This document shows positions 32,474 through 42,020 of a DNA stretch of 64,000 bases, piece by piece. The notes beneath the pieces are model-generated. The model saw nothing but the letters and a program-made list of their open reading frames with translations, searched no databases and was not told where the DNA came from. Source of the stretch: Christiangramia crocea (GTDB lineage Bacteria; Bacteroidota; Bacteroidia; Flavobacteriales; Flavobacteriaceae); NCBI RefSeq assembly GCF_022410465.1, contig NZ_JAJSON010000016.1, forward strand, positions 124,001-188,000. The letters are read 5' to 3'. The position numbers were made by a program, and so were the translations under genes. Within the stretch, counting starts at the first letter, position 1; every line of letters starts with the position of its first letter.

Positions 32474-34717
32474 TTAACCTTTCTTATAACTGGCGTTATA
32501 CTCTTCCATCAATTTCATAATGCTGTTTACCAGATCTTTTGTCTCCATCAGCACACTAAAATAGAGTGTTGTGTTCTTGGGGCTGGATTCTTCATTACGT
32601 GTTCTTGAAACCTGCTTCTCGATCTTATCAGAAAGCAAAGACAGCGTTTGCTCCTTATGCGCCATAATAGTTTTAATCTTATCAAACTTATGAGCGTTGA
32701 ACACTTCCTCTATTTCCTTAAGCAATTTTTCCAGGTTATCGTCAATCTCTTTTAAATCATTGATCTGATTGTACCGGAGAGGCTTATGATTATTGTTCAC
32801 ATGCTTATAGCTCTTTTTGGAAATGAATTCCAGAGACTGGGCAATATCTGTAAGGTATCCGAGTATGGTTATATAGAAACTACTTCCGCGTACACTCTTT
32901 TCATCAAGTCTTTTAATAAAAAAGAAGATATGATCCCTCAATTCCTCAATTTCAGCATCCAGCTTATCCACTCCTTTTTTACTCTTTTTAAGCTTTTTCT
33001 TATCCTGTAATGCCAGTCCTTCAAGAACATCAGTATATATCTTATTTGTTCTGGTGATCACGTTGGCAACATTATTGGCACTTTCACCAATAATCCCCTG
33101 TACAGTCTTACTTTCAGACTTCTGCAATCCGGATTTATCAGACTTGGCAACCTGTTTCTTTTTATGAGAAAGATAATTTCTTACCAGAAGTCCTATAGCG
33201 ACCAGTAATAAAATAGCTATTGCCGGCCCCCTTCCAAGGAAAATGATATAGGTAAGGATCCCTGCCGCTGCAAATGCACTAAAAGCTGTGAAGAACCATC
33301 CTCCAATTACATTCAGCACTCCGGCAACACGATACACCGCACTCTCGCGTCCCCAGGCTCTATCAGCCAGAGAGGTCCCCATAGCCACCATAAAGGTAAC
33401 ATAGGTCGTGGAAAGCGGAAGTTTATAGGAAGTTGCAATAGAAATTAATACTCCGGCAACCGTTAGGTTAATAGAGGCCCTGATCATATCGAAAGCCGGT
33501 CTGTCTTCATAATTTATATAGGAATCGTCTTTGTCAGGTTTAGAAAAACTCGCCCTCATTTTTCTTTTAGCCCCTATCGGAATAATGGATTTAATTCCTT
33601 CAAAAAGCGCTGTGCTTCCTTTAACTACACTTCTTGACAAAAGGTTAGGGTCGAATTTTTCAGAGCCATAACCCTGTCTGGAAAGTCCTATTTCAGTTTC
33701 GGCTACGCTTCTGGCTTTTTTAGAGAGCCACAAGGTTAACACCATTATTCCCCCTGCAATAAAGAGTAAATATGGTTGTGCAGGCACTTTATTCTGAAGC
33801 ACTTCCATAGAAAATGTTGTAGCAGCTTCACCGGAAGCTGACCAGGCCAGGAAAGAGTGATAAGCTGCCATTGGCACCCCGATGAAGTTTACCAGGTCGT
33901 TACCTGAGAATGCCAGTGCCAACCCAAAGGTTCCTATAGCAATGACTATAGGTAAGATGCTTTTCTTAAATATTTTTGTGTAGGCAAAAGAAAATATAGT
34001 CCAGAAAATATAGCTGACGATGATAATCATTAATGCCTGACTCTCAAGCACGTCCTTAAAATCAGCATAATAAGGAGTTCCTTTAAGGCCTTTAAAGAAG
34101 ATAAAATACCCGATCGCTGTTAAACAAAAACCGCCAAAGAATGCCCCAAAATTCTTGATTTTCTTCTCATACTCAAAAGTAAAAATTAGCCTGGACAAGG
34201 CTTGAATAATAGCACCAACAGTAAAGGCAATTATTACAGAAAGAAAAATCCCGGATATGATTTGTGTGGCTTTTTCTGTATTTATATAATTTAATACATC
34301 TGAAAAAGTACCGGCATCATCAGCACTTACCTTTATAAGAGCCATTACCACGGCCGCACCCAGTAATTCAAAAACAATGGATACTGTGGTTGATGTAGGC
34401 ATCCCCAGCGTATTAAAGAAATCCAGGAGTAAAATATCGGTGATCATGACGGCCATGAAAATTATCATGATCTCATTGAAATAAAACTCCCCGGGAACAA
34501 ATATCCCTTTCCTGGCAACCTCCATCATTCCACTTGAAAAAACCGCCCCGATAAATATTCCAAGGCTGGCAACAATCATAATCGTTTTAAATGAAATTGC
34601 CTTCGACCCAATAGCCGAATTTAAAAAGTTTACGGCATCGTTGCTAACTCCAACCACGAGATCGGCAATAGCAAGCACTACCAAAGCCACTAGCATTAAC
34701 AGGTAAATATTTTCCAT
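32474..34717 (-). CDS. PiT-family inorganic phosphate transporter with PhoU-like C-terminal domain
   Basis: 747 residues. The N-terminal part has the duplicated PiT signature: VGVSNDAVNFLNSAIGSKA near residue 25 and a second in the NDLVNFIGVPMA region, with about a dozen transmembrane segments to ~residue 510. Residues ~540-740 are a soluble helical region (DAEIEELRDHIFFFIKRLDE) resembling PhoU four-helix bundles, charged and coiled. In many bacteria this module is a separate DUF47/PhoU-like gene next to pit; here it is fused. The protein should import phosphate, possibly as metal-phosphate, with the tail as a regulatory domain (inference). Confidence 0.9.
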   Translation of the reverse strand: MENIYLLMLVALVVLAIADLVVGVSNDAVNFLNSAIGSKAISFKTIMIVASLGIFIGAVFSSGMMEVARKGIFVPGEFYFNEIMIIFMAVMITDILLLDFFNTLGMPTSTTVSIVFELLGAAVVMALIKVSADDAGTFSDVLNYINTEKATQIISGIFLSVIIAFTVGAIIQALSRLIFTFEYEKKIKNFGAFFGGFCLTAIGYFIFFKGLKGTPYYADFKDVLESQALMIIIVSYIFWTIFSFAYTKIFKKSILPIVIAIGTFGLALAFSGNDLVNFIGVPMAAYHSFLAWSASGEAATTFSMEVLQNKVPAQPYLLFIAGGIMVLTLWLSKKARSVAETEIGLSRQGYGSEKFDPNLLSRSVVKGSTALFEGIKSIIPIGAKRKMRASFSKPDKDDSYINYEDRPAFDMIRASINLTVAGVLISIATSYKLPLSTTYVTFMVAMGTSLADRAWGRESAVYRVAGVLNVIGGWFFTAFSAFAAAGILTYIIFLGRGPAIAILLLVAIGLLVRNYLSHKKKQVAKSDKSGLQKSESKTVQGIIGESANNVANVITRTNKIYTDVLEGLALQDKKKLKKSKKGVDKLDAEIEELRDHIFFFIKRLDEKSVRGSSFYITILGYLTDIAQSLEFISKKSYKHVNNNHKPLRYNQINDLKEIDDNLEKLLKEIEEVFNAHKFDKIKTIMAHKEQTLSLLSDKIEKQVSRTRNEESSPKNTTLYFSVLMETKDLVNSIMKLMEEYNASYKKG

Positions 34718-34949
34718 TCCTTTTTATTTTAAGGGAGATAGTTATTAATCGTAATCTAAATTGTGTCCCAATATGCTCTTTACTAAATATAAAGAACTAA
34801 ACTTTTTAAGCAATCTTTAATTTCAGGCCAAAAATATGATAAATTAGAGAATAATAAACCTTTTCAAGAATAGTCTGTTAAAAAAGAAAGGGCCCTTAAT
34901 AAAAATGAGCGGTTTTTATGCTCCTCAGACAATCTACTCCAAAAATGAT

Positions 34950-35939
34950 ATGAAAATAGCAGTATTTAGTACAAAACCTTACGATCAGGAATACTTTGAA
35001 CGTTACAATGAGAAGTCCAATTTTGCATTCACTTATTTTGAAACACCTCTGAATCATCATACAGCAAATCTTACTTCAGGATATCAGGCAGTGTGTATTT
35101 TTGTGAATGACAAGGTTGATAGTAACGCGATAAGGATATTATTTAAAAATGGAGTCAGGTTAATCGCGTTGCGTTGCGCCGGATACAACAATGTTGATAT
35201 GGAAGCTGCAAAGGAATACGGAATAAAGGTGGTAAGGGTTCCTGCCTATTCACCAGAAGCGGTTGCAGAACATGCAATAGCTCTGATTTTAACATTGAAC
35301 AGGAAAACACATAAAGCTTATAATAGAATCCGGGAGAGCAACTTTTCTTTAAATAAGCTTATAGGTTTTAATCTTCATGGAAAAACCGTTGGGGTTATAG
35401 GAACAGGAAAAATCGGGACAGCTTTTTGTAAGATCAGCAGGGGCTTTGGTTGTAAGATTATTGCCTTCGATAAATACGAATCTGATGAAGTGATCAACCT
35501 GGGTGGAGAATATAAATCCTTGGTTGATGTTTTTAAAGAGTCGGACATAATTTCCCTGCACTGCCCACTTAATCCGGAAACCAAGCATATGATAAACGAG
35601 CAGTCCTTATCTATGATGAAAAACGGAATTATGATCATTAACACCAGCAGGGGAGCATTAATAGACACAGCAGATATTATAAAGGGCCTGGCTAACAAGA
35701 AAATTGGATATTTAGGGATTGATGTTTACGAACAGGAAGAAAATCTATTCTTTAAAGACTTATCCGAAAGTATCATTGAAGATGATATGATCTTAAGATT
35801 AATCAGCTTTCCAAATGTCTTAATCACTTCCCATCAGGCCTATTTCACAAAAGAAGCTATGGAAGAAATAACCCATACCACCTTAGAAAATATCCGGGAT
35901 TTTGAAAAAGGTGAAATATTGAAGAACGAAATAGCATAA
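34950..35939 (+). CDS. D-2-hydroxyacid dehydrogenase (D-lactate dehydrogenase-like)
   Basis: 329 residues from the ATG at 34950 (MKIAVFSTKPYD); the frame is open from 34905 but the internal start fits the family better. NAD-binding GVIGTGKIGTAFC is present, with catalytic Arg in LIALRCAGYNNVD, Glu in the DVYEQEEN region and His in ITSHQAYFT. This matches the D-lactate dehydrogenase branch reducing pyruvate to D-lactate; other 2-ketoacids are possible. It stands alone, followed at 35943-35983 by an inverted repeat without a T-run. Confidence 0.92.
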   Translation: MKIAVFSTKPYDQEYFERYNEKSNFAFTYFETPLNHHTANLTSGYQAVCIFVNDKVDSNAIRILFKNGVRLIALRCAGYNNVDMEAAKEYGIKVVRVPAYSPEAVAEHAIALILTLNRKTHKAYNRIRESNFSLNKLIGFNLHGKTVGVIGTGKIGTAFCKISRGFGCKIIAFDKYESDEVINLGGEYKSLVDVFKESDIISLHCPLNPETKHMINEQSLSMMKNGIMIINTSRGALIDTADIIKGLANKKIGYLGIDVYEQEENLFFKDLSESIIEDDMILRLISFPNVLITSHQAYFTKEAMEEITHTTLENIRDFEKGEILKNEIA

Positions 35940-36068: not shown

Positions 36069-36135
36069 AAAAAAAACCAGCCTTTTTCAAGGCTGGTTTA
36101 ACTTAGTTTTGCTCCTCAGGCAGAGCTCGAACCAA
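36069..36135 (-). repeat. tRNA-Asn 3'-end remnant with terminator hairpin (copy A)
   Basis: Bases 36111-36135 match the 3' end of tRNA-Asn (40530-40554) at 22 of 25 positions: the acceptor 3' strand, loop TTCGAGC and part of the T stem. The T stem no longer pairs and the 5' three-quarters of a tRNA is absent, so this is a fragment. Beside it 36075-36098 is a perfect 10-base hairpin (AACCAGCCTT / AAGGCTGGTT) followed by T-run on the minus strand, an arrangement parallel to the real tRNA and its terminator. The hairpin also terminates the PepSY-like lipoprotein gene. Confidence 0.75.
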
Positions 36136-36193
36136 TAAGGAATATCTTAATATATTTCAGTACTATTACTAGGTTCCTAAAAGAATGCTTTAA

Positions 36194-36943
36194 TTAATCA
36201 TTATCATCTTCTTCGTCCTCTTCATCATCCCCATTTCCATCTTCTTCACTAAGTAAATTACCGTTCTGGTCAAATTCCAGTTCTATTCCATTATTAAGGG
36301 TTACCTCATATCCTTCTTCTTCACTTTCGGCCTCAATTATTGTATTATCAGGATAATTTTCAGCTATATAATCCAGTATTATCTGAGGTAAATCACTTGG
36401 ATCAATATCTTCTTCATCCTCTCCCTGGTCGTCACCGTTTTCATCCTGTGCCTGACCCAGAAAATTCCCATTGGCATCAAAAATAAGTTCCACATCATTC
36501 TCCAATTCTACTTCATAATTCCCATTATTCTCCAGCTCAGCTTCTTCTATATTTACACCAGGATAGTTATTACTTATAAAATCGAGAATAACTTGGGGTA
36601 AATCAGATGGATCTATCTCTTCATCATCAAATTCATTTTCCTCATCATCAATACCCAGAAAATCACCTTCAGAATTAAATATCAATTCAGTACCATCGCT
36701 AAGCTCGATCTCATAATTCTGATTATCCTCAATTTCTGCCTCAACTATTCTTAGATCGGGATAATTTTCAGTTATATAATCCAGAATATTTTGAGGCAAT
36801 GTTGAAGTTTGTACATGTGCATCAGCTGAAAAAGCTACAGCATTAAGATCTGGCCCAGCCGAATTATCGTCATCATTATCGGAGCATGACTGAAGCAGCA
36901 GTGCGAAAAAAACAACTGCCGCAAGAATTCTATTTGCTTTCAT
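36194..36943 (-). CDS. Lipoprotein with three PepSY-like repeats and acidic linkers
   Basis: 249 residues. Lipobox LLLQSC followed by DNDDD. Three repeats of ~48 residues begin LPQNILDYITENYPDLRI, LPQVILDFISNNYPGVNI and LPQIILDYIAENYPDNTI, each ending in a strand like ELIFNSEGDFLG. This is the PepSY-like/PF11396 pattern. Linkers and the C-terminus are almost wholly Asp/Glu, so the protein is extremely acidic and may bind cations such as calcium. Function of the family is not established. It lies between tRNA-remnant copies A and B/C, suggesting the gene arrived or was duplicated as an insert. Confidence 0.82.
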   Translation of the reverse strand: MKANRILAAVVFFALLLQSCSDNDDDNSAGPDLNAVAFSADAHVQTSTLPQNILDYITENYPDLRIVEAEIEDNQNYEIELSDGTELIFNSEGDFLGIDDEENEFDDEEIDPSDLPQVILDFISNNYPGVNIEEAELENNGNYEVELENDVELIFDANGNFLGQAQDENGDDQGEDEEDIDPSDLPQIILDYIAENYPDNTIIEAESEEEGYEVTLNNGIELEFDQNGNLLSEEDGNGDDEEDEEDDND

Positions 36944-37061
36944 AATTAGTAGTTTAGATTAATTTAAAAACCGGGTAATTTTCACCGGTTTTAAGATAAC
37001 GGATGGGGCTTAATTAGATTGTATGGCCTTTAGAAAAATTACGGAAAGGTGTCTGGCTGTT

Positions 37062-37093
37062 GTGGGTTTTCAATAGGCTGCTCAGGTTGGGCT
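37062..37093 (-). repeat. tRNA-Asn 3'-end remnant (copy B)
   Basis: 32 bases identical at 30 positions to 40515-40546, which spans the terminator arm, spacer and acceptor/T-arm end of the tRNA-Asn gene. The rest of the tRNA is missing. The match includes the spacer outside the mature tRNA, which argues for duplication of this locus rather than chance similarity to any tRNA. Confidence 0.8.
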
Positions 37094-37094
37094 T

Positions 37095-37112
37095 CCTTCG
37101 ACTAAGCTCAGG
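37095..37112. repeat. Short CTTCGAC...GCTCAG motif
   Basis: CCTTCGACTAAGCTCAGG resembles a short dispersed intergenic motif of the form TTCGACTnnGCTCAG that I associate with many genomes. Only one copy was noticed here, directly next to remnant copy B. Confidence 0.3.
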
Positions 37113-37151
37113 ATATCCCGATCATCAGGACTACACCTGAAATAATTAAAC

Positions 37152-37200
37152 AAAAAAACCAGCCTTTTTCAAGACTGGTTTATTGCTTTTTGCACCTCAG
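37152..37200 (-). repeat. Terminator hairpin plus degenerate tRNA end (copy C)
   Basis: 37152-37182 is identical at 30 of 31 positions to 36070-36100 of copy A (hairpin AACCAGCCTT / AAGACTGGTT, one stem mismatch). After an 8-base spacer GCACCTCAG (37192-37200) matches GCTCCTCAG of the tRNA acceptor end with one difference. Copies A and C are direct repeats about 1.08 kb apart, flanking the PepSY-like lipoprotein gene. Confidence 0.7.
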
Positions 37201-37429
37201 TTTAACTCCATTAATAGTCACCTAATTTAGAACACAGAGAATATACCTAATTAAAATACATTAAATAAACTACCAATTATTCATAATTAATTAATGTTTT
37301 TGAATAATATAGATATAATATTTAATTATTATTTATTTTTACACCAAACAGTTACAACTTAAAGCCTTTTTTACCAATACAAATTTCTCCAAATTAAATA
37401 TTGCACCCAATTTCTTAACTAACCAAAAC

Positions 37430-37825
37430 ATGAAAGCTCTTAAATATTATTTAAAAATAATATTCATTTTCGTTCCTTTTTTAATTTCCTGTAGTAGAGA
37501 ACCATCTATAAAGAAGGAGTATATGATAATTCCTTACCCAATGACTGGTTCAATCATGATCCATGATAAAAACTATGATTTTGAAAATGGAACAAAATGT
37601 AGAAATGGTGATGGATATAGTTTCATACTAAATGATTCTGAATCAGAGTTGGATATAACCATAGAAACACCTTACATACCAGATAATATATTTTTCAACC
37701 AATATCAGGGAGAACAAAAATGGATTAGAATTGGTCCCAAAAAATATCAGTTAATCGGTCAACGAGATCTTTTACTACTTCCCCCAGAGAAATACTGGAT
37801 TGTAACTATAGATGTTTCGAATTAA
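37430..37825 (+). CDS. Small lipoprotein of unknown function
   Basis: 131 residues. N-terminus MKALKYYLKIIFIFVPFLISC is a clear lipoprotein signal with lipobox LISC. The mature part is mostly beta with a single further Cys (GTKCRNGDG) and segments YQGEQKWIRIGPKKYQL; no family recognised. The coding sequence is noticeably A/T-rich compared with neighbouring housekeeping genes. It is 60 bases before a second lipoprotein gene on the same strand and within the tRNA-Asn-bounded accessory stretch. Confidence 0.75.
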   Translation: MKALKYYLKIIFIFVPFLISCSREPSIKKEYMIIPYPMTGSIMIHDKNYDFENGTKCRNGDGYSFILNDSESELDITIETPYIPDNIFFNQYQGEQKWIRIGPKKYQLIGQRDLLLLPPEKYWIVTIDVSN

Positions 37826-37885
37826 AAAATGAAATCGAATCTTCTTCCTTCCTAGAATTATCACTTCCACAAAAATTAGCTTATA

Positions 37886-40216
37886 ATGAAAAAATTAATA
37901 GTTATTCTATTCTGTCTTGGCTTGCTTCAAAGTTGCAGCAAAAGTTCTGAAAATGAGACTATGAAACCAACCAATGAAAATCCCAAATCAATTGAAATAA
38001 GTAAGATTTCAGGCTATATTCAGAAAGGCCCCTACGTCAACGGCACGGGAATAGTAATGCACGAACTGGATGATACTATGACCCAAACCGGGAAAAGCTT
38101 CACAACTCAGATTAATAGTAATGACGGTAAATTTGAGATTAGTGATATTAATCTTAGCTCTGAGTACGTTGAATTATCAGCTAACGGATTCTATTTCGAC
38201 GAGGTAAAAGGTGAAATATCTTCTTCCCAACTTAATCTTTATGCATTATCAAATGTTCAATCTGTTTCAGACGTAAATGTTAACCTTCTAACCCACTTGG
38301 AAAAGCAAAGAGTTGAACATCTTATTGAGGAAGGCCACTCCTTTGAGGAGGCCAAAAAAATGGCTCAAAAAGAGATACTGGCAATATTCAATATTCACGA
38401 AGACGATCTCGCCCCTTCAGAGTTACTTGATATTTCCAAAGATGCCATCCTTCTTACTATTTCCTCCATCCTTCAGGGCAATAGAAGTGTTGGTGAGTTA
38501 ACTGAGCTCCTGGCCAGCATTTCTTCAGATATTGCAGAAGATGGGGTTTTGGATGATACCAGTATTCTGGAGCAATTGCGTCAATCTGCCCTAAACCTTG
38601 ATCCCAGCCAAATACGTAATAATCTCGTAGAGCGTTATGAATCATTAGGGATTGAAGTAACAATTCCCGTGTTTGAGCAATATGTTGAAGGCTATTTAAA
38701 TTTCACAGCAACAAATCCAGAAATAACGAATGTAGAGGTTAACGTAATTACAGCAGATAGTATTGCAATAATTAGCAGGGTTATGGCCAACAACTCCGAA
38801 ACCGAGGTGATTTTTGAATATGGGGTAACTGAGAGTTTGAATGAAAAGGTTGTTTTTAGCGAGAGCCCAATAAATGGTAGTAATGTCACATCATTAAGCT
38901 TAGATATATCGGGGTTGAAGCCCGCCACAACTTACCACTATCAGGTGTCGGCAAGCAACGAATTCGGCAATGTTAGTTCACCTGTAGACAGTTTTACCAC
39001 CTTAGGTGGTTTGCCTGAAGAAATAGGCAACTTAACTCTAGTTGCAGGAACCCACAAAATTGAAGTTCAGGGAGCGGTAAATCCCAACTATTTGGAAACC
39101 GAAGTTCACATCCAATTTATAGAATACCAGCAGAATTTTGAACAAGCAGACTCTGTAAAGGTTGACCAAAGTCCTATAAGTCCTTATTCGGACGGAAATA
39201 TTACCGCATTGATTGAAGATCTTAAACCAGGTACTCGTTATTGGGTAAGATTAAAATTGGAAAACGAGATTGGAGTAACTTATGGGGATCCAATGGACAT
39301 CTATACCCTGGGAAGTGCACCAAATATTTTAATATTCGATATTGCTGGTGGCCAGCCTAAAGCAAAAAGTGTTGAGACGTATATTGAAATTGGTGAAAAT
39401 ACTTTGTCCACCCAGCTTATTTTGGAATATAGCACTTCGAATACGTTCGATAATTCAGTAAAGTATTTGGATACTTTATTAGGCCCATCAGCCCAAGACA
39501 TTGGGTTTCTAAAGAAGATTAATGGCTTGGAAATGGATCAAAATTATTTTGTTAGGTTAACTTTAAAGAATAATGTAGGTGAAGATTCATCTGAGCTTAT
39601 ATTCAAGACCTTGGATGGTATTATAAAGTTTAGTGAACTAATGTACGACTCTACATATTCAGATCCTGAAATTCATCTGTATGTAAACATTAAAGAAGAT
39701 GGAGGCTTGGCCATACAGGAGAGAGGATTGCTATACAGCCTATCTCCGGGTCTTACACTTGAAAATAGCAATGCAACCCGAATTCCAGATCCTGGAAGTA
39801 ATGAAAGCCATTTCACCACCTATCTACCAGATCTTGAGCCAGGTAAAATTTACTACGCCAGGGGATACGCTTTTAATGAATCCGGTGTTTTCTACACCAA
39901 TGAAATTGAGTTTGAATCGCTCAAACTTCCGGAAGTTGCTACTGTGGAAGTTCGAGATGTTACTTCTAATTCAGCATGGGTTATGGGTACGGTAATATCT
40001 AATGGAGGCTCCTCTGTCTTGATTACCGGGGTATGCTGGAGTAAAAACCCAAATGTTACCATAGATGATTCAAAGATTACCGGAGATGGTGAAAAAAAGG
40101 ATTTTACCATAGAAAATCTGGAGCCAAATACTCAATATTATGTTAGGTTTTTTGGTCAAAATGGTGCGGGAACGTCATATGGGGAAGAGCTGCAATTTGT
40201 GACTAATCCGGAATAA
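37886..40216 (+). CDS. Large lipoprotein with fibronectin type III-like repeats
   Basis: 776 residues. Lipobox LLQSC at ~17. Residues ~40-135 form a module starting ISGYIQKGPYVNGTGI that recurs in Bacteroidota surface lipoproteins; a helical part follows (~135-260). From ~270 onward there are about five fibronectin-III-like repeats, each ending in motifs such as LKPATTYHYQVSASNEFG, LKPGTRYWVRLKLENEIG, LEPGKIYYARGYAFNESG and LEPNTQYYVRFFGQNGAG. The last two resemble the Tyr-rich repeats of Bacteroidota cell-surface proteins. Probably surface-exposed and involved in binding polymers or cells (inference). Base composition is A/T-rich. Confidence 0.85.
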   Translation: MKKLIVILFCLGLLQSCSKSSENETMKPTNENPKSIEISKISGYIQKGPYVNGTGIVMHELDDTMTQTGKSFTTQINSNDGKFEISDINLSSEYVELSANGFYFDEVKGEISSSQLNLYALSNVQSVSDVNVNLLTHLEKQRVEHLIEEGHSFEEAKKMAQKEILAIFNIHEDDLAPSELLDISKDAILLTISSILQGNRSVGELTELLASISSDIAEDGVLDDTSILEQLRQSALNLDPSQIRNNLVERYESLGIEVTIPVFEQYVEGYLNFTATNPEITNVEVNVITADSIAIISRVMANNSETEVIFEYGVTESLNEKVVFSESPINGSNVTSLSLDISGLKPATTYHYQVSASNEFGNVSSPVDSFTTLGGLPEEIGNLTLVAGTHKIEVQGAVNPNYLETEVHIQFIEYQQNFEQADSVKVDQSPISPYSDGNITALIEDLKPGTRYWVRLKLENEIGVTYGDPMDIYTLGSAPNILIFDIAGGQPKAKSVETYIEIGENTLSTQLILEYSTSNTFDNSVKYLDTLLGPSAQDIGFLKKINGLEMDQNYFVRLTLKNNVGEDSSELIFKTLDGIIKFSELMYDSTYSDPEIHLYVNIKEDGGLAIQERGLLYSLSPGLTLENSNATRIPDPGSNESHFTTYLPDLEPGKIYYARGYAFNESGVFYTNEIEFESLKLPEVATVEVRDVTSNSAWVMGTVISNGGSSVLITGVCWSKNPNVTIDDSKITGDGEKKDFTIENLEPNTQYYVRFFGQNGAGTSYGEELQFVTNPE

Positions 40217-40530
40217 TAGATTAAACAAAAATAAATGGCAGAATGAAATGGACTTTTGTAAAGGCATCCATTTTAATTATTTCCTATAGACTTTCTAATG
40301 ATACTTAGAAACAATTATACCTGGTGTATCACTGATTAAAAAAATGGAACCATTCAGTAAGGAATTGACTTCATTCCTATTCCTTATGTATAAAATTAAA
40401 AAGCCCAAGATTTAGACAGATTTCCTTTTCCAAACGTATGCCTCATCGGTTAAAGCTAAGGATAGACTTCTTTTCCCTTAAGATTTAAAAATAAAAAAAC
40501 CCACCTTTTTTGAGGTGGGTTTTCAAAAGG
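40217..40530. other. Gene-free region before the tRNA-Asn terminator
   Basis: About 310 bases. Apart from the tRNA terminator at 40493-40523 nothing recognisable was seen; only short frames (about 20 codons) without support are open. Confidence 0.55.
40493..40523 (-). terminator. Rho-independent terminator of tRNA-Asn
   Basis: Stem CCCACCT (40500-40506) with AGGTGGG (40513-40519), 6-base loop, followed on the minus strand by a run of seven T. It begins 8 bases beyond the tRNA 3' end. Confidence 0.88.
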
Positions 40531-40604
40531 CTCCTCAGGTTGGGCTCGAACCAACGACCCTCTGATTAACAGTCAGATGCTCTAACCAACTGAGCTACTG
40601 AGGA
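40531..40604 (-). tRNA. tRNA-Asn (anticodon GTT)
   Basis: 74 bases read on the minus strand. Acceptor stem TCCTCAG / CTGAGGA with discriminator G, D arm GCTC...GAGC, anticodon stem TCTGA / TCAGA with loop CTGTTAA giving anticodon GTT, variable loop, and T arm GTTGG-TTCGAGC-CCAAC, all paired. CCA is not encoded. It is the intact copy whose 3' end is repeated in degenerate form at 36.1 and 37.1-37.2 kb. Confidence 0.97.
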
Positions 40605-40703: not shown

Positions 40704-42020
40704 CTATTCAAATAGCCAGCGATATATGTCATTTCCGTTGGCGAATAATACCAGTGCGATAAGAATAAAGAAGCCTACCATCTGGGCAATCTCCATGAAC
40801 TTGTCGTTAGGTTTTCTTCCCGTTACCATTTCATACAACAGGAACATTACGTGACCACCATCCAGTGCAGGAATAGGCAGAATATTCATGAATGCAAGAA
40901 TGATGGAAAGCAAGGCTGTGGTATGCCAGAATCCGGCCCAATTCCAGGTATCAGGGAACAATCCGCCAATTGCTCCAAAACCTCCTAGCTGTGAAGCTCC
41001 TTTTTTGCTGAACACATACTTGAATTGGTACACATAATCTCTTAGCGTCCAGTACCCATAATCAAAGCCTTTGCTAATACTTTCTGCAAAGCCAAAATTC
41101 TTTCTCTTTATCTCGATCCCGGTTACCGGGGCAATTCCCAGTTTTCCGTCTTCATCTGGTTGAACCGAAGTACTTAATATCTCGCCGTCCCTTTTATAGA
41201 CAACTTCGATTTCCTTCTGCTTGTTCTCAGTAGAAATAGGCGCGATCTCATGCCAGTATCCAATTTCGATATTATTCAAAGAAATAATACTATCTCCTTT
41301 CTTAAGTCCGGCTTTTGCAGCGGCCATATTTTCCGCTACCGTATCTAGAACCGGGTAGTTAATAGGAACAAAAGGCTGCATCACTCCCTGTTCAAACATT
41401 CTCACCCCTATCTCCTCAGGAATAGAGATGGTTTCCTCCGTGCCGTTTTCATGAATTACAGTGATGGTCCTTACATCCCTCATAAAGAGATGCTTGTTTA
41501 TATCAAGGCTGTTTTCGAATTCCTTTCCATTAACCTGAAGAATCTTGTCACCATCCTGAAAGCCATATTCCTTAAAAGAATCCACGACGGCAAAACCTTC
41601 CGGCATCTCATCGGGTCCTACATAAGCTTTACCCCAAACGAACATGATCATCATATAGATCAGGAAACCGAGAATAAGATTTACTGTAACCCCACCAAGC
41701 ATTATAATAAGTCGCTGCCAGGCTGGCTTACTTCTGAATTCCCATTCTTTCGGAGGCTGAGCCATCTGCTCCTTGTCCATGCTTTCATCTATCATCCCCG
41801 AAATCTTCACATAACCACCAAGAGGCAGCCAGCCAATTCCATACACCGTATCTCCTATCTTCTTTTTGAAAAGGGCGAACTTCACATCAAAGAAAAGGAA
41901 GAACTTCTCTACCCTTGTCTTAAAGAGTTTCGCCGGAACAAAATGACCCAATTCATGAAGAACGATCAAAAAAGACAGGCTTAATATTAATTGTATGGCT
42001 TTTACTAAAAATGGATCCAT
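40704..42020 (-). CDS. rseP: Site-2 protease RseP (intramembrane zinc metalloprotease)
   Basis: 438 residues. HExxH in LIVLHELGHFVPAKLF (H22, E23, H26) within the first membrane segment, a PDZ-type region (FQDGDKILQVNGKEF and AKAGLKKGDSIISLNN, i.e. two PDZ-like domains), and the C-terminal metal motif LPIPALDGGHVMF. The enzyme cuts transmembrane proteins, classically anti-sigma factors in envelope stress, and clears signal peptides. Length is normal. It is alone on the minus strand between tRNA-Asn and the Sco1 gene. Confidence 0.96.
   Translation of the reverse strand: MDPFLVKAIQLILSLSFLIVLHELGHFVPAKLFKTRVEKFFLFFDVKFALFKKKIGDTVYGIGWLPLGGYVKISGMIDESMDKEQMAQPPKEWEFRSKPAWQRLIIMLGGVTVNLILGFLIYMMIMFVWGKAYVGPDEMPEGFAVVDSFKEYGFQDGDKILQVNGKEFENSLDINKHLFMRDVRTITVIHENGTEETISIPEEIGVRMFEQGVMQPFVPINYPVLDTVAENMAAAKAGLKKGDSIISLNNIEIGYWHEIAPISTENKQKEIEVVYKRDGEILSTSVQPDEDGKLGIAPVTGIEIKRKNFGFAESISKGFDYGYWTLRDYVYQFKYVFSKKGASQLGGFGAIGGLFPDTWNWAGFWHTTALLSIILAFMNILPIPALDGGHVMFLLYEMVTGRKPNDKFMEIAQMVGFFILIALVLFANGNDIYRWLFE

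Follow-up and report, generated by a model that had tools for sequence, protein, structure and literature searches.

An intact tRNA-Asn gene in Christiangramia crocea (Flavobacteriaceae) has on its left three partial copies of its own 3' end, designated A, B and C, which alternate with lipoprotein genes. The locus lies in a stretch of 64,000 nucleotides (nt), hereafter the window, taken from assembly GCF_022410465.1 (contig NZ_JAJSON010000016.1, positions 124,001 to 188,000). The reading we favour, with a probability of roughly 80%, is that the 3' end of this tRNA-Asn gene is an integration hotspot of the genus and that copy B has another origin, as the worn remnant of a repeat in which a tRNA tail is fused to a palindrome, here called a tail unit. 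Elements with integrases and attachment (att)-like copies occupy the locus in five relatives, its content is variable, and in the window it carries a fibronectin type III (fn3) gene as strain-specific cargo. Tail units stand directly behind many tRNA genes, nearly always as copies of the tail of that very gene, and bear an outer arm complementary to it. Copy B, with a terminator on each side, is most likely a worn member of this widespread class and not an ordinary integrase scar.

The tRNA region was matched in all 24 genomes of the genus. A phosphate-permease-like gene, which we take from its sequence to be pit, shares its contig with the tRNA gene, and lies to the left of it, in 22 of them (in G021 it is on the other of two broken contigs, and in G011 the contig end cuts the locus). 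An rseP-like gene lies to the right in 24/24, within about 1.5 kb in 18 and at 1.6-4.6 kb, with intervening genes, in six. The distance between pit and the tRNA gene ranges among the 24 genomes from 157 bases (G020) to 22,720 bases (G009), and the gene content differs: in nine genomes a porin-like frame, named by eye, is the single frame of more than 200 amino acids (aa) in between, and the fn3 gene is present in one genome of the 24, that of the window. Six relatives (L414-L419) have one to three genes between the tRNA gene and rseP, so that the upstream side of the tRNA gene is variable too.

Five relatives carry elements of 14.0-19.8 kb between a direct copy of the tRNA 3' end, 28-50 nt long, and the intact gene. 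These copies are exact over 50 nt in G009 (span 15468), over 43 nt in G016, G018 and G022 (spans 15486, 13967 and 15486) and over 28 nt in G004 (span 19780). The tyrosine integrases of G004, G009 and G016, all three of those tested, combine PF00589 with arm-binding and SAM-like domains; those of G018 and G022 were assigned through their close similarity to that of G016, whose element also encodes a relaxase (PF03432). The cargo, as named by eye, includes DNA methylase and helicase-like genes (G009, G004), an RND-type efflux set (G016, G022) and a sulfate-permease-like gene (G018). G011 and G021 appear to be further cases, cut by contig ends. In G021 the same tRNA-Asn contains the ends of two contigs, C18 and C46 (L004, L024), a break in the assembly that a repeated att sequence would be expected to cause. 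Several element types are thus found at one tRNA-Asn gene, and the hotspot is therefore real and used by more than one of them; our data support a hotspot of the ordinary kind.

In G009, the nearest relative by its tRNA region, the locus forms a stack composed, in order, of a worn unit (by eye), the PepSY gene, a unit remnant, two regulator-like genes (by eye), a unit, the att copy, the element and the tRNA gene; the third unit of this stack has the same type of terminator. The window is likewise built of blocks, running from left to right as pit, a dehydrogenase gene, a terminator with copy A, the PepSY gene, copy B with its palindrome, a terminator with copy C, a gene of 131 aa, fn3 and finally the terminator and the tRNA gene (Table 1). 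The interleaving of tails and gene blocks in both genomes speaks for repeated insertion, because repeated insertion predicts it.

Copies A and B, with scores of 35 and 31, are the two best matches in the window to the 47-nt 3' part of the tRNA gene, the gene itself excluded. No other place scored above 19 on that strand or 21 on the opposite one, and shuffled tails scored 31 or more in 0/1000 trials over the 5.76-kb interval (maximum 30) and in 0/200 over the whole window. The identities reported by an earlier reading made from the sequence alone (the sequence-only reading), 22/25 for copy A (36111-36135) and 30/32 for copy B (37062-37093 against 40515-40546), were confirmed, as was the single orientation shared by A, B and C. 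Copy C stood up less well: it matches the tail at 11/18 positions, which is not significant alone, but it adjoins a 31-nt terminator that shares 97% identity with the one beside copy A. The low G+C content (GC) ascribed to the three lipoprotein genes is clear for the 131-aa gene (0.295), while the PepSY and fn3 genes (0.363 and 0.385) fall slightly below the window mean of 0.403; at third positions the three genes have 0.232, 0.235 and 0.338, against 0.365-0.456 in five neighbours, a difference that speaks for the sequence-only reading.

Comparison with relatives changed other parts of that interpretation, which is partly supported as a whole. Gene order and spacing vary among the relatives, which upholds its proposal of an integration hotspot with variable cargo. 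The variable stretch is bounded by the end of pit (34717) and not by the 2-hydroxyacid dehydrogenase gene formerly taken as its edge, which was found at the locus only in the window among the stretches compared (no tblastn match at those from 23 relatives). The PepSY gene, counted as cargo between the copies, occupies the same locus in G007, G009 and G019 and is common to part of the genus, not freshly acquired. The 131-aa gene is absent from the relatives' locus stretches compared, whole genomes not having been searched for it. Finally, the three copies had been treated as a single kind of scar; the hotspot stands, but copy B most likely belongs to a different class of repeat, in which an 18-nt copy of a tRNA gene's own tail is joined to a palindrome.

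Table 1. Features of the tRNA-Asn locus, in window coordinates
Feature	Position	Strand	Evidence or remark
pit gene, phosphate-permease-like (name presumed)	32474..34717	-	left edge of variable stretch
D-2-hydroxyacid dehydrogenase gene	34905..35939	+	PF02826/PF00389
Copy A terminator-like hairpin	36070..36099		97% identity to 37152-37182
Copy A, tRNA-Asn 3' end, 25 nt, T-arm and acceptor strand, without palindrome	36111..36135	-	22/25, score 35
PepSY_like lipoprotein gene, three PepSY_like stretches	36194..36943	-	PF11396
Terminator and spacer remnant next to copy B	37062..37075		within 30/32 match to 40515-40546
Copy B, most likely tail of a worn tail unit	37076..37093	-	17/18 against tRNA tail
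REP-like (repetitive extragenic palindromic) palindrome, fused to copy B at T-loop position	37094..37131	-	covariance model R1
Copy C terminator-like hairpin	37152..37182		sequence comparison
Copy C, weak tRNA tail remnant	37192..37209	-	11/18; backed by own terminator
131-aa lipoprotein-like gene	37430..37825	+	GC 0.295; no Pfam match
776-aa fn3 lipoprotein gene, strain-specific cargo	37886..40216	+	PF00041, PF16656
Terminator of intact tRNA-Asn	40493..40523		sequence
Intact tRNA-Asn(GTT), integration target	40529..40604	-	matched in 24/24 genus genomes
rseP-like M50 peptidase gene, right flank	40704..42020	-	PF02163

The PepSY lipoprotein gene contains three DNA repeats of 61-80% identity at a spacing of about 200 bases, and its product likewise three Pfam stretches.

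When each interval of the genus was searched with the tail of its own tRNA gene, long copies were found at element ends and, in other genomes, shorter ones of about 18 nt in which the tail gives way to a palindrome at the T-loop. A pattern for this junction (at most three mismatches) gave 10 matches in 7/24 genus genomes, every one at the tRNA-Asn locus. With R1, a covariance model of the unit with 58 positions, units were found at this locus in 11 of the 24 genomes (the run left out L004, L025 and L028-L031). The match in the window (37084-37131, 24.1 bits, E 0.0039) is its only one at E <= 1. The same palindrome stands behind tRNA-Met, tRNA-Gly and tRNA-Thr in G014 and G003, each time fused to about 18 nt of that tRNA.

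This linkage extends well beyond tRNA-Asn. Among the matches listed, which come from 118 named stretches, 53 of 129 are accompanied on the expected side by a tRNA gene no more than 130 bases away; the tails of these 53 units agree with their own tRNA at 18/18 positions in 45, 17/18 in six, 16/16 in one and 12/18 in one, so that 52 share 16-18 tail bases with it. Over these matches, the survey below and the loci found with R1 together, the tRNA kinds concerned are Thr(TGT), Thr(GGT), Asn, Asp, Gln, Gly, His, Ile, Leu, Lys, Met, Ser, Trp and Ala, amounting to at least 13 amino acids. A Ser unit and one Thr(GGT) unit (L119, L098) come from metagenome bins of candidate phyla (CPR2, Levybacteria), where transfer or misbinning is possible. 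A survey of 169 tRNA genes from six genomes, restricted to distinct genes whose T-loop could be recognised and that had 250 or more bases of downstream sequence in the stretches examined, gave own-tail copies downstream of 11 genes (21 copies) and no inverted or upstream ones; swapped tails matched in 8/27,508 cases. At the break, the palindrome core is present behind nine of these 11 genes and another palindrome behind one; the remaining gene has plain copies. Copy number was one to five per tRNA gene in the survey, and G563 contains a run of six R1 matches.

At family level, R1 matched 39 of 199 Flavobacteriaceae genomes, one genome per genus; one locus each from 30 of these 39 was examined, with tRNA genes in 30/30 and an own-tail copy in 29/30. 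Over a sample of the phylum, R1 matched 10/395 genomes, eight of them Flavobacteriaceae and the other two from a further family within the order, with tRNA linkage not checked for the set; the exact pattern, run over the order, matched 11/395, ten of them in one other genus whose tRNA linkage was not checked. In G161, R1 matches (L397, L402, L406) adjoin three copies of the tRNA-Ile of L280, probably in the spacers of ribosomal RNA (rRNA) operons. Rfam returned no family for the units at six unit-bearing loci, tRNAs alone exceeding the cut-offs, and the Flavobacteriaceae units, including the palindrome sequence, were not found in the open-access literature searched.

Read in the RNA sense, a unit consists of an outer arm, usually the motif GAGAAG, the palindrome core, the tRNA tail from G57, a trailer and often a terminator. 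Up to 9 bp (Leu) can form between the outer arm and the start of the tail, and the arm tracks the kind of tRNA: units among the matches listed pair over 4.14 bp with their own tail, against 1.22 with the tails of other tRNAs. Covariation was measured in the building set A1 (all 59 tRNA-linked units, poor ones kept) and in the model-found set A2 (35 of 40 R1 matches, five of other lengths dropped), the latter leaning towards the stem since R1, by which it was picked, contains this stem. Cells with a double change numbered 77 against 40 after shuffling in A1 and 54 against 25 in A2, values attained in 0/500 shuffles each, and in both sets the covariation score fell when the stem was slid. G-U and A-C cells are equally depleted (18 against 54.5 and 17 against 51.7), and the pairing therefore looks like a property of DNA and not of RNA under selection; a second arm that matches the tail without preference for G-U suggests a DNA process.

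The boundaries of the units are clearest in L153, L136, L107, L088 and L114, where near-identical terminators flank them on both sides. These five have no second palindrome outside, and the duplication runs from G57 to just beyond the T-run of the terminator (L107 has an extra worn tail). A clear likeness between inner and outer flanks (z above 6) was seen in 20 of the 50 units compared among the matches listed, several of the 20 being arrays; three of the 53 units were too short of flank and were dropped. The outer terminator resembles the native one of relatives in G006, G008 and G021 (by eye), while the inner one differs. Two other accounts of the junction and arms were considered and dropped: inspection by eye showed no shared bases at the break that would indicate microhomology between palindrome and T-loop, and an attC-like reading of the arms was given up after a similar inspection.

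From these observations the following history may be proposed. Tyrosine-integrase elements would enter the tRNA-Asn gene and rebuild it with a 3' end and terminator of their own, each displacing the old 3' end and terminator outward; once elements had been deleted or had decayed, tails and orphan terminators would remain in a row between blocks of cargo. Displaced ends of this sort probably account for copy A and for the junction at copy C, and the 131-aa and fn3 genes probably arrived with an element since lost; the assignment of the window's copies to particular events is inferred from this scheme. The units, for their part, may have originated in a DNA event at the T-loop that duplicated the segment from the T-loop to the T-run of the terminator, the second arm being made by copying the tail, and may then have multiplied in tandem and spread through recombination. 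Local duplication followed by exchange between genomes would give both terminator patterns. In the window, a later insertion would have parted the unit from its tRNA gene, from which copy B now lies 3.4 kb away.

A number of results weigh against this account. In the window, copy C lacks significance on its own, the unit scores weakly with R1 (24.1 bits, the second weakest of the matches at the locus), and no integrase was detected among the five interval and flank genes tested against Pfam, as the sequence-only reading had already stated of the interval. No tail copies occur within 600 bases of the 25 tRNA genes surveyed in the window genome. Among the pattern matches listed, 64 of 123 lack a tRNA gene within 480 bases on the expected side (the other 59 being tRNA-linked, and six of the 129 skipped for missing flank), and the set of named genomes was seeded by a pattern that requires GG..TC before the palindrome. 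Two measures of covariation less prone to relatedness are less favourable: the number of pairs with a double change was equalled in 418/500 shuffles (A1) and 169/500 (A2), and that of further pair types in 135/500 and 13/500. Flank likeness is small or absent in the remaining 30 of the 50 units, mostly Thr units inside an operon, and in G006, G008, G019 and G021 the inner terminator differs by eye from the outer one, a pattern for which pure local duplication gives no explanation. Tail copies also occur without the usual palindrome: behind the tRNA-Cys of L342 (G161) there are two plain tandem 3' copies, 109 bases apart, and behind the tRNA-Leu(TAA) of L051 (G014) two tail copies are fused to another palindrome, CCGATAGCTATCGG, which suggests that a tail unit can carry another hairpin.

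Among the alternatives, the one that fares best holds that A, B and C are all tail units or fragments of them, the integrases making independent use of the same gene. Copies B and C do adjoin each other in the order tail, palindrome, terminator, tail, which is that of the tandem units of G003 and G014, and a unit is present at the locus in nearly half of the genus genomes (11/24). Copy A, however, has a full T-arm and no palindrome, and its hairpin resembles the terminator adjoining the intact tRNA in G015 and in G004, where this is the tRNA-end terminator of the element; we regard this alternative as rather doubtful. It is unlikely, too, that the units are retained for a function of their RNA hairpin, as small RNAs derived from tRNA transcripts. 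They lie between terminators like the rr repeats of Escherichia coli, which are reported to be transcribed and to bind Hfq and CsrA in vitro (PMC8144298), and their stem covaries; selection for RNA pairing, however, would not deplete G-U as strongly as A-C, and worn copies exist in several genomes. Mobilisation of the units as REP elements by RAYT (a Y1 transposase) would agree with the occurrence of the core away from tRNA genes, namely the 64 of 123 listed matches mentioned above, some at contig ends, and L040, L042, L046 and L048. Against it, Y1_Tnp was found in 8/24 genus genomes but not in G014, where core-bearing units stand at five tRNA genes, and the exact core in 0/11 Y1 loci of about 2-3 kb each; the palindrome, tested as the exact core, neither flanks nor accompanies the Y1 gene, and such mobilisation is very unlikely. 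Decay of an ancestral tandem tRNA-Asn array, an option raised by the sequence-only reading, accords with the common orientation of the copies, their terminators and the plain tandem copies at the tRNA-Cys of G161, but can hardly be credited when 3' parts alone are seen, the 24 loci have a single tRNA-Asn apiece and none in tandem, the breaks fall at the T-loop, T-arm or anticodon loop, and elements lie between the copies in five relatives.

With an integration hotspot and a worn tail unit as the preferred reading, the locus offers an ordered stack of displaced tRNA ends together with living examples of the elements. Programs that find islands by interpreting 3' tRNA fragments as integrase scars may err in these genomes. 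An anatomy like that of the tRNA-linked repeats (TLRs) of E. coli, found behind tRNA genes of at least 13 amino acids and with R1 matches in 39/199 Flavobacteriaceae genera, makes the origin of such repeats testable and points to a DNA process. A broader proposal, which we advance tentatively and at somewhat less than even odds, is that, in two phyla or more, tRNA genes act as seeds of self-copying DNA palindromes: a DNA event at the T-loop would duplicate tail and terminator, the second arm would be a fresh copy of the tail, a single mechanism would have produced the E. coli repeats and the Flavobacteriaceae units, either independently or very long ago, and the units would rearrange the 3' ends used for integrase attachment. 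If this were true, the repeat would adapt itself to whichever tRNA gene receives it.

Compared with known systems, the elements of the relatives resemble tRNA-gene genomic islands as treated in the Islander account (PMC4383910), in having a displaced direct 3' fragment, an integrase, variable cargo and, in G016, a relaxase; their copies of 43-50 nt extend to the anticodon loop and that of 28 nt to the T-arm, both of them crossover subsites named there. A direct 3' fragment at a distance is represented by copies A and B and by the copies of the relatives, and the content between the flanks is variable. The window interval differs from an island in that no integrase was seen in it and in that one copy is most likely a tail unit and not an island end. 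With REP palindromes, as presented in PMC3733652 and PMC12306157, the units share the character of short intergenic palindromes, and their core likewise occurs elsewhere in the genomes; they differ in the fixed position of the T-loop break behind tRNA genes, the tail-matched arm and the duplication of the tail.

The closest likeness is to the TLRs, which were first described in 1978, have no established function and are defined by 18-19 bp at their 3' end that repeat without change those of the tRNA or rRNA gene directly upstream (PMC8144298). The relatives' units carry such an own-tail copy, and occur in one to five copies per locus as TLRs do; copy B of the window agrees at 17/18 positions yet lies at a distance. 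In E. coli MG1655 we confirmed the 178-base array at tyrT/rttR, whose outer arm is complementary to the tail over 10 bp, from the second base of the 19-nt copy, and is followed by GAGAAG, as in many units. Arms that reach the start of the tail measure 8-10 bp at tyrT, 8 in one arg copy and 6 at proK; the other arg and lys copies have a 5-bp arm, likely by chance, or none. An 18-bp copy overlapping the 5S end has been described for E. coli, according to the same source (PMC8144298); the tails of two E. coli 5S genes (last 18 annotated bases) had no copy of at least 15/18 within 700 bases. Two chance-level R1 matches (E 4.6) in MG1655 lie directly behind 5S genes. The bodies differ, with a model of 58 positions here and a 178-base period in tyrT, as do the phyla, and R1, run with filters off on 11 MG1655 stretches, found no repeat above chance (best E 0.51); homology of the body was not found. 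Taken together, the units share the anatomy of the TLRs without proof of membership, and look like a variant of the TLR kind.

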